From positions 1-37,640 of the IMG/VR virus record IMGVR_UViG_3300042340_000042: DNA of 37,640 nt; one strand, given 5' to 3'. Source of the stretch: a virus. Positions 1 through 37,640 of the stretch are shown one piece after another (position 1 is the stretch's first letter; the number at the start of each line of letters is the position of its first letter). A program made the position numbers and the translations under genes. The notes beneath the pieces were generated by a model. The model saw nothing but the letters and a program-made list of their open reading frames with translations. It was not told the DNA's origin and made no database searches.

Positions 1-141
1 GCCGGTCTTTTATATATAATATTATATACCTTATTATTATTATGGTATATATTATAACTTTTTCTGTATAGTAATTACACTACCTACACTGCCTACACAT
101 TCCTTCAAGTCAAGCACAGCGCGGGGTTGCGCGTAGGCAGT
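1..141. repeat. Direct terminal repeat, left copy
   Basis: These 141 bases recur at 37500-37640 with one difference (T at 127, G at 37626). The contig ends inside the repeat on the right, so this is either the overlap of a circular or circularly permuted assembly or a true terminal redundancy. The length equals a k-mer size often used by assemblers, which favours an assembly overlap; the mismatch then needs a variant or an error. Confidence 0.93.
10..62. other. AT-rich inverted repeat, candidate origin unwinding element
   Basis: This stretch is almost pure A+T, broken only by the ACC/GGT of an inverted repeat with arms TATATACC (23-30) and GGTATATA (44-51) around a TTA-repeat loop. On the circle it lies between two 9-base-spaced tandem pairs of the GTAGGCAGT element facing away from each other (37472-37490 and 79-97). 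Binding repeats beside an easily melted AT-rich block is the layout of iteron-type replication origins. The origin role is inferred. Confidence 0.55.
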
Positions 142-212
142 CTAAGTGTCATTTAACTGCCTACACACCGCCTACACGCCACCTACAAAACATCTATTCG
201 CAAAACAAAGTA

Positions 213-240
213 TTGCATTTAAATTTTATTGCTTTATAAT
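213..240 (+). promoter_or_regulatory. Promoter of rightward unit 304-2147
   Basis: A perfect sigma70 -10 box TATAAT lies at 235-240, 16 bases after a weak -35-like TTGCAT at 213-218. Transcription would begin near 247 and read the 66-aa gene, ardA and the clamp gene. A dyad at 250-267 and repeat copies at 266-304 sit just downstream, placed to act as operators. Confidence 0.6.
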
Positions 241-249
241 GTTTTGCAA

Positions 250-267
250 GTCATCTATTTTGATGAC
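250..267. promoter_or_regulatory. Dyad GTCATC-N6-GATGAC, possible operator
   Basis: Perfect 6-base arms (250-255 and 262-267) around a 6-base spacer directly follow the -10 box at 235-240 and touch the repeat copy at 266-275. The position at the expected transcription start suits a repressor site; it could also fold in the leader RNA. No binding protein is identified. Confidence 0.4.
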
Positions 268-303
268 TGCCTACACTAACCACACTATAGAGAGACTGCC
301 TAC

Positions 304-504
304 ATGAACACACTAACTATTTATACTGCACTACTTGCGCAAGGTTTAAATGTTACCGCGTTTGATAGCGATAAAAATACAATTACTTTTGACCGCGTAA
401 CAACAAGTGAAATACTCGCGATTAGCAACACCCTGAACGCAATGCTACACGCTAACGAAGTATTATTAATTGATAGCTTAAAATTCAAAATCAGATTCAT
501 TTAA
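304..504 (+). CDS. Hypothetical protein, 66 aa
   Basis: I do not recognise this protein. It is a small soluble-looking chain with no cysteine or membrane segment, predicted to mix short strands (around residues 15-32) with a helix (33-52). The start at 304 has AGAGAG nine bases upstream and is overlapped by a copy of the ACTGCCTACA repeat. It is the first gene after the TATAAT promoter at 235-240, so it would be made early. Its place next to the repeat cluster makes it one candidate for a repeat-binding or autoregulatory protein, but no DNA-binding motif is visible. Confidence 0.7.
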   Translation: MNTLTIYTALLAQGLNVTAFDSDKNTITFDRVTTSEILAISNTLNAMLHANEVLLIDSLKFKIRFI

Positions 505-558: not shown

Positions 559-1041
559 ATGAAAATTTACGTTGTGACCTATGCAAAATACAACAATGGC
601 AATTTAACCGGCGCGTGGTTAACATTAACGGACTACAACGACGCGGAACAATTTATTGATGCTTGCAAGGAATTGCACAATGATGAATCAGACCCTGAAC
701 TAATGTTCCAAGATTTTGACGATGTTCATAAAAATTACCAAAAAGAATGTGTTGACCTTGAAGAAGTCTATTACTACGTTAACGCGTGTCTATCTAATGA
801 CAAAGAAGTTATTGACGCTGGACTAGATTGTGAAATACCGCTTGATTCAATCATGAACGCGTATATTGGCACATATGACAGTGATAGTGATTTTGCTTAT
901 GATATGGCCGACCAATGTGGCTATATAAATGACGTTAGTGAACAATGGCCATTTTGCCATATGGACTGGCAAGCCGCTGCTAAAGCGTTAATGTTTGACT
1001 ATGTAGAATCAAACGGCCATTATTTTTCTAATAACTGGTAG
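559..1041 (+). CDS. ardA: ArdA-like antirestriction protein
   Basis: ArdA proteins mimic the charge and shape of B-form DNA and block type I restriction(-modification) enzymes, protecting incoming phage or plasmid DNA. The 160 residues match the usual ArdA length of about 165. The N-terminus has the family pattern IYV-x-YN-x-G-x-L-x-GAW (residues 3-21), followed by FQD (50-52), an IGTYDS segment near 103 and the C-terminal pattern D-x-x-AAAKAL near 137. The chain is very rich in Asp and Glu, as expected of a DNA mimic. A long AGAGAGAG ribosome site precedes the start. It is in the first-transcribed rightward unit, suited to action just after entry. Identification is by motif and composition, not by alignment. 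Confidence 0.85.
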   Translation: MKIYVVTYAKYNNGNLTGAWLTLTDYNDAEQFIDACKELHNDESDPELMFQDFDDVHKNYQKECVDLEEVYYYVNACLSNDKEVIDAGLDCEIPLDSIMNAYIGTYDSDSDFAYDMADQCGYINDVSEQWPFCHMDWQAAAKALMFDYVESNGHYFSNNW

Positions 1042-1051
1042 AAGATTTCAA

Positions 1052-1085
1052 CGTATAGCGCGTGGCTAACGTCGCGCGTTATGCG
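1052..1085. other. Stem-loop between ardA and the clamp gene
   Basis: CGTATAGCGCG (1052-1062) pairs with CGCGTTATGCG (1075-1085) as an 11-base stem with two G-U pairs and a 12-base loop. It buries the ATG at 1081 and lacks a T run. It resembles the hairpin at 511-530 in position, so both junctions of this unit carry a non-terminator stem-loop. Confidence 0.5.
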
Positions 1086-1122
1086 GTGTAATTTTGCACC
1101 TAATAAAAATAAAGGCTTAACA

Positions 1123-2088
1123 ATGAAAAACATAATTTTCGCGGAAATAGTAAAACAAGCACTGAAGGAACGCGCTGCAGGTTATCACCTTGCAAAATTC
1201 GAAAGTGATTGCGTAAAAGTAAACACTTCAACGTTAAATGTTGAACTATACAAGCACCACAATATAAGCGCGGTTTTAGATCTAGCTAAAATTAAAGCGT
1301 TTAAATTAACCGATATAGACGCGGATCTAACTGTAAAAGGTAACGCGCTGCCGTTATCTGAACGCGAGTTTTTTCAAGGTGCTAAGGACGACAATAAAAT
1401 TATCGGCATCCAGCACATACCGGCCGGCTTTATAAATGCCAAGTGGTTAAAAATGACGGGCGGACCGAAGGAAGTACGTTACTATTTAAAAGGCATGAAT
1501 TTCAAGCGAGAAAATAATAAATTGCAGATTGCCGGCAGTGATGGCCATCAGCTCATTATGAATACCGCCATAGGTGAAACGGGCCCTGATTTTAACGCTT
1601 TAATTCCAAGTGAGGCCCTACTCATATTAAGTAAGATTAAAACATCCTTCCTAATGACCGTTACAGAATCTCACGCTAAATTTACGGGCGAAGACTGGAC
1701 TATTGAAACGCGGTTAATCGACCATAGATACCCTGATTTTTCAAAAGTGTTTAATACTACAATTAACGGTGATATAGACGTTAATAGAAAACTATTAATC
1801 CAGGCAATAAAGGATGTCACGCCGTTTTTGCCGCCTAAATTGCAAGGCGTGATGTTAACCGTTACAGATAAAATGCTAGATTTTAATCATCACGGTGACA
1901 CGCTTGCGAGTATACCATTCATTCATTCAAGCGGTACGAAAGCAAGCGAAGGCGTTAATATCAGTTATTTACTTAACGCGCTCGAATGCTATAAAGACGA
2001 AAACATTATGCTAAGTTTTCGTGATGGATTAATCCAAATTAATCGTGATACGTTTCAAACTAGCATCGTCATGGGAATGAGACTATGA
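1123..2088 (+). CDS. DNA polymerase III beta subunit (sliding clamp) homologue
   Basis: The bacterial beta clamp is a dimeric ring of six similar domains that holds polymerase on DNA. This 321-aa protein keeps recognisable second and third domains: EVRYYLKGMNF then GSDGHQL (near residues 125-145, matching the DnaN R-x-x-L-N-G-x-x-F / DGHRL block), RLIDHRYPDF (near 197-206, matching LIDGRFPDY) and a C-terminus VMGMRL that parallels VMPMRL of E. coli DnaN. The first about 100 residues are much less clear, and the chain is about 45 residues shorter than E. coli DnaN. I chose 1123 because the ATG at 1081 is inside a stem-loop and has no ribosome site. It is the third gene of its unit and close to the putative origin. 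Whether it forms a functional ring or disturbs the host clamp cannot be told from sequence. Confidence 0.85.
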   Translation: MKNIIFAEIVKQALKERAAGYHLAKFESDCVKVNTSTLNVELYKHHNISAVLDLAKIKAFKLTDIDADLTVKGNALPLSEREFFQGAKDDNKIIGIQHIPAGFINAKWLKMTGGPKEVRYYLKGMNFKRENNKLQIAGSDGHQLIMNTAIGETGPDFNALIPSEALLILSKIKTSFLMTVTESHAKFTGEDWTIETRLIDHRYPDFSKVFNTTINGDIDVNRKLLIQAIKDVTPFLPPKLQGVMLTVTDKMLDFNHHGDTLASIPFIHSSGTKASEGVNISYLLNALECYKDENIMLSFRDGLIQINRDTFQTSIVMGMRL

Positions 2089-2147
2089 TAATTGTATTTT
2101 TGATTCTAGTTAAATTCACCATTTTGGCGATATTACTGGAAAGCTAA
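2085..2147 (+). CDS. 20-aa hydrophobic peptide
   Basis: An ATG overlaps the clamp gene stop codon as ATGA and opens 20 codons of almost only Ile, Leu, Val, Phe and Thr, with one Lys near the middle and Glu-Ser at the end. The peptide would span a membrane once. It sits between the clamp gene and the terminator at 2156-2177. The tight coupling supports translation, but so short a reading frame may be chance, and no family is recognisable. Confidence 0.4.
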   Translation: MIIVFLILVKFTILAILLES

Positions 2148-2155
2148 ACAAGAAG

Positions 2156-2177
2156 GCGGACGAAAGTCCGCTTTTTT
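2156..2177 (+). terminator. Rho-independent terminator
   Basis: GCGGAC (2156-2161), loop GAAA, GTCCGC (2166-2171), then six T. This is a classic intrinsic terminator with a stable GNRA-type tetraloop, ending the rightward unit 304-2147. Confidence 0.93.
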
Positions 2178-2197
2178 ATTGCGTCAAACAACTGCAA

Positions 2198-2218
2198 GGG
2201 CTTAAATAGCCCTTTTTT
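2198..2218 (+). terminator. Second, tandem rho-independent terminator
   Basis: GGGCT (2198-2202), loop TAAAT, AGCCC (2208-2212), then six T. It backs up the terminator 20 bases upstream. Confidence 0.82.
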
Positions 2219-2506
2219 ATTGCCTACCATTTAACGACGTATAAAGCCCGTTACACTGCAGTAAATAGTTTAGCAATACCCTAGTATTGCCTTCCAGTCA
2301 AACAAGGCAACAAAGGCCAATAAAGGCTATAAAAACGCCATATACAATACCAGGCGCGGGCGTAAAATCACGCGCAAAATCTTATTTGATGGTTATTTGA
2401 TAAGGTCGGAATTTCGAATCTGGAGATGTACAGGATTTCAAATCTAATGAACGCTCAATTTTTGCCACGAAACGATTTGCAAATTTTTGCCACGAAACCA
2501 AATGCC
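2219..2506. other. Non-coding gap between convergent units, with a 17-base direct repeat
   Basis: No convincing gene lies here. The notable element is AATTTTTGCCACGAAAC at 2457-2473, repeated exactly at 2482-2498 with a 25-base period and ATTTGCAA in the gap. It lies just beyond the leftward terminator at 2507-2545. Two exact copies at near two helical turns suggest a protein-binding site, but no partner is known. Confidence 0.6.
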
Positions 2507-2545
2507 AAAAAAATTCCCCAATCATCCGAGCCGATAATTGAGGAA
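2507..2545 (-). terminator. Terminator of the leftward replication unit
   Basis: Read leftward, TTCCTCAAT (2545-2537) pairs with ATTGGGGAA (2522-2514) as a 9-base stem with one G-U pair, followed by seven T (2513-2507). It lies about 40 bases past the primase-helicase stop codon and faces the rightward terminators at 2156-2218. Confidence 0.7.
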
Positions 2546-2554
2546 CACATGAAC

Positions 2555-2576
2555 TAACAATTAGAGAGAATTGTTA
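2555..2576. other. 8-base inverted repeat after the primase-helicase stop
   Basis: TAACAATT (2555-2562) and AATTGTTA (2569-2576) flank AGAGAG. There is no T run on the leftward side, so it is not the main terminator, which is at 2507-2545. It would form a stem-loop in the 3' untranslated RNA and may protect it from decay. Confidence 0.5.
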
Positions 2577-2584
2577 AAGGTAGT

Positions 2585-4861
2585 CTACTTAATCGCTACA
2601 ACTTTTGCAACAGGTTTTTGCTCTGCTAAATCACGCAGCGCAGACTTGCTCATGTGCGCAAACTCAGGTGCGCAGAAAATGTGTTTCTTAGTCTTAGCCG
2701 AGCGCGAATTGCACATTCCCTTATCAGCCCACCCAGCTTCTTCAAGTGCATGAAACAAAGCAGCAGGCGGGAATTGTTTACTGCCAAACGACATAGCGGC
2801 GCGTTCACAAATGGCTTGAAAGGGAGAGGCAATCACACCGGATGCAAACTCACCCATACGCAGCGTAATCATGTCAAGCAGCGACGACTCAACAGCGGAC
2901 AGACTATTCTGCACCAGTGACATTTTAAAGTCTGTCATAGGCGCAGGCGCAGCAGGGTTGAACGCAGACACATCACGCAAGAACAACCAGTTAGCAATAA
3001 GGTCATACCCACCGCCGTCATTAAACCATTTCCATATAGCGGTAGCTGATTGCGGCGCAAGACGCTCCGCCGTACTCCAAGTAGCAAACCAACGACGGTC
3101 GCCCGATTCGAGTGACAACGGCACACGGTCATTAGAGAACGCAAGCACGGCAAGACGGTTTACAAGGTTATACGGGGCAAGGCCTTTACGGTTAACGGAT
3201 AGCATCTCAGGTGGCGCGGCGATAACAGGCTTGAGTTTGTTGGCTAGCATCCGACGGGCGGCGCTGTCGGCTTCTTTAAGCTCATTAATAACAATAACCT
3301 CTGCTTCTAAATGATAGCCCCACGCGGACTGAATGGTGTCAGTAGACATAAGCGAGTAATTACGCAAATGAGGTCCACACACGGCGTAAATGAATGGGGC
3401 ATACATCGTATCTTTACCGATACCTTGACCACCCGCGTGAAGAATAGCGTGGTTAATCTTAACGCGCGGATTCTGCACCTTAAACGCCATGTAATTCCAA
3501 ATGTGTTCCAGCTCACGCTCGTCAGGAACAAGCGATTTACAGTGGTCAAGCCATAGGGATATATTGCCACCCAAATTTCCGCCACGAGATGAATCTGGAC
3601 GGGCGTCACGCCATCGGTTGCCATACAATTCACCGTCACGCATAGCAATCACCGAGTCACCAGCGGCAAAGGTGATACCTGCCAGCACTCTAGCGCCCAT
3701 CACCTGACGGTTCTCGTCAAAGCTCATGGCGGCCTCTATCTTGCGGTCAGAGTGAATACTTTTGCACGACACATGACGAAACACGGCGTTGAACGTCTGA
3801 CGTGAGAATTCACGACGGTTTTGCAAATCAAAATAAGAGTCGTCTGACATGACGTAAGCAAAGCGTTGATACCACTCCGCCTTTTCAAGCCGCGCGATTT
3901 CCTTCTGCTCGACTTCTGCAATGATAGCCGCCGCCGCGTCAGTGCTGAACATATCAGTGGGTTCGAGTTTGTTAATCGCTGTGTGCATCACCTCTGCAAG
4001 TATTTCTTCACGAAGACCATGTGAGTGTTTAGGGCCGCCCATCTCAGCTACCCATGCGAGGTAAGTACGGCTATCCCACGACGCGCAGTGACCATGAAAG
4101 CAACAGTAAGCGCGGTTAAGCGGGTGGTATCTGCCCATCAACTGCCCGTCTGTATGCTCAGCGTGGTTAGGGCAAACAACCCCAACCCACCCCTCAGCGT
4201 TAGCGGACTCCATCACGTCACCACGCGAAGATAGCCATTCCAGCACGTCATCATTACCCGTGTCGATGATAGCAATCGGGCGCACTGTCGCCGTGTCAGC
4301 CGCAGACGGGTGAACGTTAAGCGCCGAGCAAATTTGGTCAAGCGTAAATTCACGCTCAGGGTGAAACTCCACAAGGATAGATTTGAACGACGCACGGTCA
4401 GGCTTCAAATTGACTGACGCAGGAAGGCGAAAATTACGCACGGGGTTAATCGCGCCACTGTCAGTATAGCCCGCGTCAGCGATTGCTTTAATAGCGGCGC
4501 TAAACTCACCTTTAGTTGGCATATCATCTAAAGCAAACGTGTAGCCCCACTGGTAATTCTGCGGTGAGGTTTCCATTATCCATGTCGGCTCAATAGGAGG
4601 ACGCAAACTCTTGGTGCCAATGTCGTCAAGCACGAGAAAAGCAACGTACTCGCAGTTGCCCGCACTCGCAGACGGTTTGCCATCTTTAAAACGTGACGAG
4701 ATAAACGACGCGGTATTGCCATACCACGCGCCTTTGCCGTCGTATCGAGAAGGAAGATAAGCAGGCCATGCAAACTGACCGTTGTCTTTAGCAATTTGTT
4801 TGACTAAAAGGATACTTTCGCCTTCAGGCGCGATACGTTCCAAGTAAGTAATAAAATTCAT
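2585..4861 (-). CDS. Primase-helicase (RepB-type primase fused to helicase ATPase)
   Basis: The protein (758 aa) should prime and unwind DNA for phage replication. The N-terminus has VLDD (77-80) followed by IGTK, and NFRLPASVNLKP (143-154), the pattern of RepB-like archaeo-eukaryotic-type primases. A Cys/His cluster at 230-259 (C230, H233, C254, H256, C259) looks like a primase zinc finger. The C-terminal part is a P-loop helicase of the DUF5906/NrS-1 polymerase-like type: Walker A GGQGIGKD (477-484), Walker B VIVINE (522-527) and a sensor segment FSND (575-578). The start at 4861 overlaps the polymerase stop as ATGA and has an AGAGAG ribosome site eight to thirteen bases upstream; an in-frame ATG 57 bases earlier is inside the polymerase gene. 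It is last in the leftward unit. The motifs are clear; the exact subfamily is less certain. Confidence 0.87.
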   Translation of the reverse strand: MNFITYLERIAPEGESILLVKQIAKDNGQFAWPAYLPSRYDGKGAWYGNTASFISSRFKDGKPSASAGNCEYVAFLVLDDIGTKSLRPPIEPTWIMETSPQNYQWGYTFALDDMPTKGEFSAAIKAIADAGYTDSGAINPVRNFRLPASVNLKPDRASFKSILVEFHPEREFTLDQICSALNVHPSAADTATVRPIAIIDTGNDDVLEWLSSRGDVMESANAEGWVGVVCPNHAEHTDGQLMGRYHPLNRAYCCFHGHCASWDSRTYLAWVAEMGGPKHSHGLREEILAEVMHTAINKLEPTDMFSTDAAAAIIAEVEQKEIARLEKAEWYQRFAYVMSDDSYFDLQNRREFSRQTFNAVFRHVSCKSIHSDRKIEAAMSFDENRQVMGARVLAGITFAAGDSVIAMRDGELYGNRWRDARPDSSRGGNLGGNISLWLDHCKSLVPDERELEHIWNYMAFKVQNPRVKINHAILHAGGQGIGKDTMYAPFIYAVCGPHLRNYSLMSTDTIQSAWGYHLEAEVIVINELKEADSAARRMLANKLKPVIAAPPEMLSVNRKGLAPYNLVNRLAVLAFSNDRVPLSLESGDRRWFATWSTAERLAPQSATAIWKWFNDGGGYDLIANWLFLRDVSAFNPAAPAPMTDFKMSLVQNSLSAVESSLLDMITLRMGEFASGVIASPFQAICERAAMSFGSKQFPPAALFHALEEAGWADKGMCNSRSAKTKKHIFCAPEFAHMSKSALRDLAEQKPVAKVVAIK

Positions 4862-6777
4862 TTTCCATATCTCTCTAATGTTGATACACCAACCGCTAAG
4901 GGTAATCCTTCTGCCCACGCAGGGGCGCTACACATCACGGTTTCCAAGTCTTGCGCGGCTGTCGCCGCATCTTCTTTTTTCACTTCCAGCACAATCTCGT
5001 CGTGAACATGAAGCACGACAGTATGCCCGATTCGCGCTAATGCGTCACGAAGTAAATCATTTGCAATCGCCTGTGTAATATTCTCACAAGCGAGTCCAGC
5101 CCATAACCTAGCTCGCGGCCATTCGACTGCATCAGCAGCGGGTTTCCACGCCGCCTTAGCGTAAGATACCGACCCGTCTTCAATATATGCCGATGGGTAG
5201 CATAGCACCCGACCAGACGGCAGGGCGTACCACAAATTCACACCGTCAAACAGATACGTCACGCGACCAGCGGTAAACTCACGCCCCTTATGGCGCATGG
5301 CGCACATATACGCTCGCTCAAGCTCACCCCAATACTGCACCGCCCATGAGTTACTGCGACGCCACGCGTCAACGGTGCGCTTAGCCTCCGCTTCAGGCAG
5401 TGAAATGCCATAGGCTTTACCCATCGCGCCAAACGCCCCAGCCCCACCCATATAGCCGCACGACAAAATAGCGACCTTACCAATCTGACGTTGGTCAGGC
5501 GTTATCATATCCATCGGACGGTTAAAGATACCAGCGGCGGCGCGAACGTAAATGTCCTCGCCACTGCGAAACACGTTAAGCACATCTTCACTGCCATGCT
5601 GCAAACTAGCCCAAGGCGTCACACGCGCTTCAATACCTGCCCAATCTGCTACCACAAAAACATTACCGGCGGCAGGCATCAACGCAGGGCGAAGCATACC
5701 CTTTAAAACGTCCGTCACACGCTTGCCATGCACCGGAACAATGTCACGCCCAACGACCATATCATCACGCACCCGTTGTGGCTCTTTAGCGCATTTACGC
5801 GTAAAGTTATGCACCTGCGCACCATAGGACGACGCTCGACCAGTCGCACTGCCACCATTAAACACAAACGCGCCACGCACACGATGGTCTTCAAAATCTG
5901 CAAGAGAAAGCAGACGGCTAAACTTCGCCACAGACGACGCCCACAAGTCATCAGCGCATTGAATAACCTCCGCAACGTGCGGCGGAATTTCTTCAGGGTC
6001 GTCCATCAACAGCAAATTAGCGCGAACGCTTTTGTCGATAGAATACTTCTCACCATTCCACATTAGCTCACGAGCGACAGAACCAACACGCTCAAGCACC
6101 CACTCACGCATCTTCGGTGAACGAACAGATTTAATTGCACCGTCCGTTAGCTCCACGACGCGAGATTGGATTTCCTCAAGCTCAACGCTAGCGTAGCGCA
6201 TGGCGGCACGGCACAAGTCAACGTCCACGAGAACACCTGCGTCGTTAATGCGCTCGTTGACGTGATAGTCTGCAAGCTCGTCATTTGTCAACTGACGCAG
6301 TGCAGTAGACACTGCTCGCATGGTTCTTACGTCTTGACGGCAATACTCGATAAGCTCAGGTAGCAATTTGGTGTTAAACGGAGGAGTACAGCACTGCTTA
6401 ACTAACATCTTGCCACGATGGTCTTTGCGCATCTCGCTAGAGATAGCACGTCCAACATCCTCAAGACTGCCCGGAAGGCAATTAGCTCGTGCTTGCACAG
6501 CGGTGCAGTAAAACTGCTCAAGCGTATAGTCTATCTGTAGAACGTACCAAAAGATTAGCCGCTCAAACGCGGCGTTATGCGCTCGTATCTGACCCGTGAA
6601 GTTGCGAACGTTGTCAGGAAACGGCATATCAGGCGTCCATGTCTGCACGTCCTCATCATCAAAGGCGTAGCACATACACAGCACGTCAGTAGTCAGGTCT
6701 TGCGCGTAATTGTAAACGCCATGCTTAGGCAAATCACATTCGCTTCTTGTTTCAAAATCGATATAAAGTATAGGCAT
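4858..6777 (-). CDS. Family A DNA polymerase with 3'-5' exonuclease
   Basis: This is the replicative DNA polymerase (639 aa). The N-terminal proofreading domain has DFE at 7-9 (Exo I), N68 within RAHNAAFE (Exo II) and Y145-x3-D149 (Exo III). The polymerase domain has TGRASS at 312-317, motif A D378-WAGIEAR, motif B R430 to K434 and Y442 (RQIGKVAILSCGY) and motif C VHDE at 591-594, so the catalytic residues are present. The 5' nuclease domain of bacterial Pol I is absent, as in phage polymerases. The start is secure because Exo I begins six residues in, yet no ribosome site lies next to it; the only good one (AAGGAG, 6810-6805) is on the far side of a terminator-like hairpin. I see no T7-type thioredoxin requirement or clear clamp-binding peptide. 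Confidence 0.95.
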   Translation of the reverse strand: MPILYIDFETRSECDLPKHGVYNYAQDLTTDVLCMCYAFDDEDVQTWTPDMPFPDNVRNFTGQIRAHNAAFERLIFWYVLQIDYTLEQFYCTAVQARANCLPGSLEDVGRAISSEMRKDHRGKMLVKQCCTPPFNTKLLPELIEYCRQDVRTMRAVSTALRQLTNDELADYHVNERINDAGVLVDVDLCRAAMRYASVELEEIQSRVVELTDGAIKSVRSPKMREWVLERVGSVARELMWNGEKYSIDKSVRANLLLMDDPEEIPPHVAEVIQCADDLWASSVAKFSRLLSLADFEDHRVRGAFVFNGGSATGRASSYGAQVHNFTRKCAKEPQRVRDDMVVGRDIVPVHGKRVTDVLKGMLRPALMPAAGNVFVVADWAGIEARVTPWASLQHGSEDVLNVFRSGEDIYVRAAAGIFNRPMDMITPDQRQIGKVAILSCGYMGGAGAFGAMGKAYGISLPEAEAKRTVDAWRRSNSWAVQYWGELERAYMCAMRHKGREFTAGRVTYLFDGVNLWYALPSGRVLCYPSAYIEDGSVSYAKAAWKPAADAVEWPRARLWAGLACENITQAIANDLLRDALARIGHTVVLHVHDEIVLEVKKEDAATAAQDLETVMCSAPAWAEGLPLAVGVSTLERYGK

Positions 6778-37383: not shown

Positions 37384-37490
37384 TGTAGGCAGTCATGTAA
37401 GCATATGTAGGCAATTAAAAACAGTGTGACTGCCTACGCCTGCGCCCAGTGATGACGCGGTTTAGCGCGATTGTAGGCAGTGTAGGCAGT
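37384..37490. repeat. Iteron-like TGTAGGCAGT repeats, left cluster
   Basis: Inverted relative to most of the right cluster: 37384-37393, 37406-37415 (one mismatch), 37472-37481 and 37481-37490 (tandem, 9-base period), plus one opposite copy at 37429-37438 (one mismatch). On the closed circle these mirror the copies at 79-304 across the AT-rich block at 10-62. Confidence 0.82.
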
Positions 37491-37499
37491 CATTTTACC

Positions 37500-37640
37500 G
37501 CCGGTCTTTTATATATAATATTATATACCTTATTATTATTATGGTATATATTATAACTTTTTCTGTATAGTAATTACACTACCTACACTGCCTACACATT
37601 CCTTCAAGTCAAGCACAGCGCGGGGGTGCGCGTAGGCAGT
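37500..37640. repeat. Direct terminal repeat, right copy
   Basis: Copy of 1-141 with G in place of T at 37626. It carries second copies of the AT-rich block and of three iteron-like elements (37578-37587, 37587-37596, 37632-37640). If the contig is a circle, these are counted twice. Confidence 0.93.

Follow-up and report, generated by a model that had tools for sequence, protein, structure and literature searches.

A dnaN gene in a phage is usually annotated, untested, as coding for a processivity factor, and the locus described here raises the question of what a beta sliding clamp homologue does in a phage that encodes its own family A DNA polymerase. The gene lies in a viral contig of 37,640 nucleotides (IMG/VR record IMGVR_UViG_3300042340_000042), the whole of which is hereafter called the window. 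A first-pass annotation, made from the sequence alone, had proposed three roles for the product, namely a processivity ring for the phage polymerase, a decoy that binds host clamp-interacting proteins or a hybrid partner for host DnaN, with a lean towards host takeover. The two ends of the contig (1-141 and 37500-37640) overlap over 141 bp with a single mismatch (T127 versus G37626), and the genome is therefore circular or terminally redundant, with about 37.5 kb; the window is thus a complete or nearly complete genome. Besides the features in Table 1, it contains genes for an Mx8-like capsid protein, a DUF2800 exonuclease, a C5 methylase and a SNF2 helicase. Its close relatives are all metagenomic, the relatives of the capsid protein are found in Mx8-like phages with mixed hosts, and TerL has a single relative in GTDB genomes, with 34% identity.

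Table 1. Features of the window that bear on the clamp homologue, with positions in the window.
Feature	Position	Strand	Evidence
Iteron-like array, right part: TGCCTACA copies at 90, 158, 268 and 297	1..306	.	
orf66, at the head of the early unit, found in some relatives only	304..504	+	no family match
ArdA antirestriction protein, upstream of the clamp on the same strand	559..1041	+	PF07275 E=6e-20
Conserved leader with a 15-bp hairpin (1052-1085), left exchange junction	1042..1134	+	alignment, hairpin scan
Beta-clamp (DnaN) homologue, 321 aa	1123..2088	+	PF02767, phrog_947, E. coli beta, AlphaFold2, Foldseek
N-terminal region (residues 1-92) at the position of clamp domain 1, about 30 aa shorter, unrecognisable	1123..1398	+	
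Clamp domain 2, residues 93-216, first helix shortened, half of the peptide pocket	1399..1770	+	PF02767, AlphaFold2, pocket residues
Clamp domain 3, residues 217-321, remainder of the pocket, ends GMRL	1771..2085	+	phmmer, profile, AlphaFold2, pocket residues
Conserved right flank, where homology to clampless relatives restarts (2085)	2085..2585	.	
Two hairpins followed by T-runs (2156-2171 and 2196-2214), end of the early unit	2156..2214	+	scan, consensus only
Primase/helicase (RepB-like primase, DUF5906), convergent with the clamp unit	2585..4918	-	profile matches
Family A DNA polymerase (PolA), 92-100% identical across the core group, whether or not the clamp is present	4858..6777	-	PF00476 E=2e-21
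Iteron-like array, left part: TGTAGGCA, copies in - orientation, plus an AT-rich element	37384..37640	.	continues at 1-306

The DnaN homologue and its domains

The ORF at 1123-2088 is a genuine DnaN homologue, and its coordinates and strand had been given correctly. The longest ORF begins at 1081, but ATG 1123 is the better start because all 17 full-length relatives found in IMG/VR (73-91% identity) align starting from MKNIIFAE, and because the in-frame codons upstream of 1123 belong to a leader that also precedes unrelated ORFs in other phages. An apparent N-terminal region shared with 72-aa ORFs of clampless phages was an artefact of translating this leader (MRCNFAPNKNK), and vanishes at the correct start. 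Domain 2 was recognised by Pfam (PF02767, E=2.7e-11, 44 bits against a cut-off of 27); despite a PF02768 score that stays below the cut-off by Pfam alone (E=0.01, 16 of 27 bits), phmmer, profile search and fold all reach through domain 3. Residues 115-320 matched E. coli beta 148-365 in a phmmer search of solved structures (E=1e-17), and the E. coli beta match of a profile search against the PDB extended to residue 366 (E=3e-20); in all, clamp domains 2 and 3 are matched by residues 114-321 of the ORF. The match to phrog_947 (DNA polymerase processivity factor, E=7e-23) spans only positions 149-364 of the 368 in the profile, the ORF aligning from position 149 onward and not over the full length. 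The DnaN motifs of domains 2 and 3 that had been noticed at first are therefore borne out, the former by PF02767 and the latter by the phmmer, profile and phrog_947 matches; the C-terminal MRL is likewise present, in a protein that ends GMRL.

AlphaFold2, run on a 39-sequence alignment, modelled residues 91-321 as two clamp domains with helices and sheets of clamp type (block-mean pLDDT ca. 80-96, and ca. 80-91 in domain 2). With this model as a query, Foldseek retrieved E. coli beta (E=9e-19), many further bacterial clamps and, at E<=0.001, 165 viral proteins, a large share of which are named as phage beta clamps. Structure prediction, which had been suggested as a check, thus returned the clamp fold for domains 2 and 3 and low confidence for residues 1-90, which mostly had a pLDDT below 50 in both of the models obtained from two different alignments; in the second, most of these residues were covered by family members alone. 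The first domain had been described as poorly conserved, which is correct and even understated: PF00712 (domain 1) gave no match at E<=1 in the 321-aa protein, residues 1-92 scored against the DnaN domain 1 profile inside the range of their shuffled versions, and there was no PDB match to the N-terminal region. Identification of this region as a remote clamp domain 1 gained no firm support from BLAST, HMM, global hhalign or the two AlphaFold2 runs, although by its fold it may still be one. Nevertheless, the N-terminal region is under purifying selection like the remainder of the protein and is not decaying, with dN/dS values of 0.10 for this region, 0.07 for domain 2 and 0.08 for domain 3, and of 0.085 over the whole ORF (17 full-length relatives).

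In E. coli beta, the pocket that receives clamp-binding motifs is formed by V247, L177, V360, P242 and M362, with R152, G174 and R246 (PMC3716654). Compared with, and numbered after, E. coli beta, from which the DnaN of the local host may differ, the window protein has identical residues at R152, L155, G174, H175, L177, P242, V247, Y323 and M362, and conservative changes in T172S, R246K and V360I; these pocket residues are invariant or nearly so within the family. Domain 3 of E. coli beta contacts domain 1 of the other subunit, and the double mutant I272A/L273A is a monomer at low micromolar concentration (PMC4041429). In the window protein, I272 is aligned to P and L273 to F, E298, E301, E303 and E304 are replaced by H, T, A and S, and retention is only partial at E300, which is D in 11/14 sequences. 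In E. coli beta, the acidic interface residues of domain 3 pair with basic residues of domain 1. With most of these interface residues lost, the protein is unlikely to join host DnaN in a normal head-to-tail ring, as judged from the substitutions, but it may form a ring with itself through other contacts. Of the two sets of residues whose loss had been proposed as decisive, those of the pocket are kept and those of the interface largely lost.

Clamp presence and the replication genes of the phage

We retrieved 55 IMG/VR loci with a relative of the polymerase of the window, including a core group with about 92-100% identity to the window in PolA and primase. Searches with Pfam, PHROG and tblastn indicated that the clamp is missing in 20 of the 38 contigs with PolA and primase proteins that are 92-100% identical. 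In one clampless phage, L027, PolA and primase match those of the window with 100% identity over 4248 bp. In a tree built from the PolA plus primase DNA of the 38 phages, the clamp state changes at least 14 times, against a mean of 12.8 for shuffled states; clamp and polymerase did not therefore show co-inheritance, there being no clustering beyond random on this tree. Likewise, no alignment column of PolA, primase, SSB or exonuclease was associated with clamp presence beyond shuffles. The median dS was 0.88 for the clamp versus 0.35-0.38 for primase and PolA, indicating that the clamp alleles predate the shared backbone in which they are found and are being reshuffled.

We also scanned for possible partners of the pocket, within the consensus forms of the clamp-binding motif. 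The consensus pentapeptide (QL[SD]LF-type) appeared in none of the window proteins, and looser patterns were absent from PolA and primase, with isolated matches in SSB and exonuclease. The scanned proteins included none that was recognisable as a phage clamp loader. That L027 has no clamp, although its PolA and primase are 100% identical to those of the window, argues against the phage polymerase needing the clamp as an obligatory processivity ring, and this part of the first-pass proposal is disfavoured.

A ring that is optional is a different matter, and constitutes the main rival to the host-directed role proposed below. The protein would then be a genuine processivity ring that dimerizes through a divergent domain 1, is loaded by the clamp loader of the host and tethers the phage polymerase or host polymerases on phage DNA, being of help in some hosts only. 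The intact domains 2 and 3 and pocket, which would be kept here too, are consistent with this, as are the clamp-like helices and sheets of both modelled domains and the similar purifying selection on the three regions of the protein. There is also a precedent in Burkholderia phage KL1, whose pol III beta gene directly adjoins the DNA polymerase gene (PMC3483164). However, an optional ring has to accommodate a PolA and a primase without clamp-binding motif, an exchange of the gene that leaves no trace in the replication proteins, the replacement of E298, E301, E303, E304 and the I272 contact (E300 being partly D), and a domain 1 without confident fold or profile match. We consider it doubtful, albeit far from negligible.

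The exchange slot and the early unit

The clamp gene is an exchangeable allele, which we report here as new. It occupies a slot between the primase gene and a TerS-like gene and, with many contigs being fragments, exclusion between occupants was scored on complete slots alone. Such slots are filled by the clamp or, in its place, by a cassette of small ORFs: a 72-aa ORF, p72, was present in 16/18 clampless slots and in 0/10 clamp slots, with two slots containing neither, so that clamp and p72 are mutually exclusive (Fisher P=5e-6). The junctions are fixed: homology to clampless relatives breaks inside the ORF at ca. 1134 and resumes at 2085. The 93-bp leader at the left junction is 87-88% identical in the clampless phages L027, L028 and L030, is part of a longer matching stretch in L046, and precedes the gene in the slot regardless of whether this is the clamp, p108 or p72. 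This leader may have a regulatory function or serve to anchor recombination.

In the slot of L027 (14190-17247) and its equivalents, the cassettes are made of the families p108, p72, p65, p78 and p77, in combinations that are mosaic between phages. These small ORFs, of unknown function, are likely host-directed early genes; p72 corresponds to phrog_3436 (function unknown) and occurs in many enterobacterial phages too. In the slots of L027, L032, L035, L037 and others, p65 carries the sequence QA[ILVF]A[LI]F (e.g. QAIALF) and p77 carries QFSIL or QYSIL. The likeness of these sequences to clamp-binding motifs is loose, concerns single families and is perhaps due to chance, and we considered it too weak to be used.

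On the + strand, orf66, ArdA and, in third place, the clamp make up a unit that runs from an iteron-like array to the T-run hairpins, with the primase gene converging on it from the opposite side. From this gene order, we infer that the clamp is expressed early, together with ArdA. The array comprises eight TGCCTACA/TGTAGGCA repeats in 440 bp over the contig junction, compared to a maximum of 2 in 2000 shuffles, and the location of the gene beside a putative origin had thus been fairly described.

The iteron-like repeat exists in two types that differ in one base, TGTAGGCAG in the window versus TGTAGTCAG in L027, L030, L037 and others, with arrays at L027:16503-16739, L030:7029-7265 and L037:10533-10610. 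Most genomes contain largely one type, even where PolA and primase are identical, which suggests that the iteron types co-evolve with a type-specific DNA-binding protein. Clamp presence and iteron type were not coupled. Beside the iteron region, L027 (16787-16898) and L030 (7302-7458) also contain perfect tandem repeats of 12-14 bp, which are absent from the window.

The proposed role and its relation to known phage clamps

The neighbourhood with ArdA, the exchange against small early ORFs and the conserved pocket together favour an accessory, host-directed early protein that engages host clamp-binding proteins. The gene product is a divergent and probably accessory homologue of the beta clamp that has kept the pocket-forming domains 2 and 3, with a first domain that was probably rebuilt and a changed subunit interface. 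Produced early with ArdA, the protein would act on the host side of the infection, offering an alternative clamp to host partners with clamp-binding motifs, such as polymerases, the clamp loader delta subunit, Hda and MutS/MutL, and these would be either drawn off host DnaN or presented on phage DNA. The family A polymerase of the phage would not depend on it for processivity, and we give this reading as a whole a probability of around 0.5. Host partners are indicated because the pocket is conserved without an evident partner in the phage, and it is from the pocket that we infer the step of host capture. The original lean towards takeover is strengthened by an exchange that is independent of the replication genes, by the early unit with ArdA, by the retention of the pocket and by the absence of the motif from PolA and primase, whereas the ring and hybrid roles proposed alongside it lose ground. 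Tentatively, the protein might also be a clamp mimic, in which domains 2 and 3, joined to a new N-terminal domain, would form a soluble docking platform and not a ring. Exchanged among phages as an early effector, such a mimic would capture host clamp-binding proteins (or DnaN-directed toxins) and have no use in replication.

The location of the gene alongside ArdA, in an early locus that varies between phages, and its exchange in the manner of anti-defence genes, would also suit a decoy for toxins or defence systems directed at DnaN, with the phage clamp soaking up or resisting a host toxin. DnaN-targeting toxins do exist, for instance RipA of Streptococcus pneumoniae (PMC12795458). Nevertheless, PADLOC gave no match for the clamp or its neighbours, and a conserved peptide pocket is not obviously needed for such a decoy, which we regard as improbable. 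Still less probable is a hybrid partner that enters and alters the host DnaN ring: the protein retains domain 3, whose E. coli counterpart contacts domain 1 of the partner subunit (PMC4041429), but the acidic residues that would face host domain 1 are mostly gone, I272 is aligned to a proline and its own domain 1 is unrecognisable. Finally, a decaying relic of a captured dnaN gene, to which the shortened and unrecognisable domain 1 might point, is contradicted by the selection test, because purifying selection on residues 1-92 is similar to that on other parts (dN/dS about 0.1 or lower everywhere) and the ORF is open and of constant length in 17/17 full-length relatives.

Phage beta clamps as such are known, including in phages of 38-41 kb, and the initial claim that they are uncommon in phages of this size was not supported. 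Size-matched examples are Paracoccus phage Psul1 (37.9 kb), Alteromonas phage XX1924 (40.6 kb) and Synechococcus phage S-H1 (39.2 kb), to which KL1 can be added; Aurantimonas phage AmM-1 (47.8 kb) also has a beta clamp, and a motif scan of IMG/VR viral contigs yielded 337 stretches. DnaN matches from phage collections that lie in host-type sequence (e.g. dnaA-dnaN-recF) were left out of the count of phage clamps. The window protein resembles bacterial DnaN (PF00712/PF02767/PF02768) in the sequence of domains 2 and 3, the predicted fold and the pocket, but it is 45 aa shorter than E. coli beta, has no detectable domain 1, has lost most of the acidic interface residues of domain 3, has a short first helix in domain 2 and is not tied to dnaA or recF. 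The phrog_947 clamps of AmM-1, Psul1, XX1924 and S-H1, together with that of KL1, are likewise DnaN homologues from tailed phages of about 38-48 kb. However, the first four match nearly the whole of phrog_947, domain 1 included, whereas the window ORF matches from position 149; and, unlike in these phages and KL1, the window gene is exchangeable, lies distant from the polymerase gene on the opposite strand and is beside ArdA.

Reduced clamp homologues have also been found, although they are shorter than the window protein. Burkholderia phage AH2, which also has DNA polymerase, SSB, Cas4-like exonuclease and primase, encodes a 209-aa homologue (gp20) similar to a 237-aa protein of BcepNazgul (PMC3483164), and neither showed similarity to the window protein by tblastn. 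The 222-aa protein of Xanthomonas phage Suba resembles it by fold only. A similar outcome to the one proposed here, early interference with the host clamp, is found with Twort Gp168, which binds the DNA channel of the host clamp (PMC11139829), but in our case the protein resembles the clamp itself. In the literature, as far as it was covered, no phage clamp homologue was found described as a decoy or as an allele that is exchanged.

Polymerase and primase are identical between a phage that has the clamp and one that lacks it, a natural comparison that opens the purpose of a phage clamp to direct test, and the peptide pocket of the clamp emerges as something that phages may use against their hosts.
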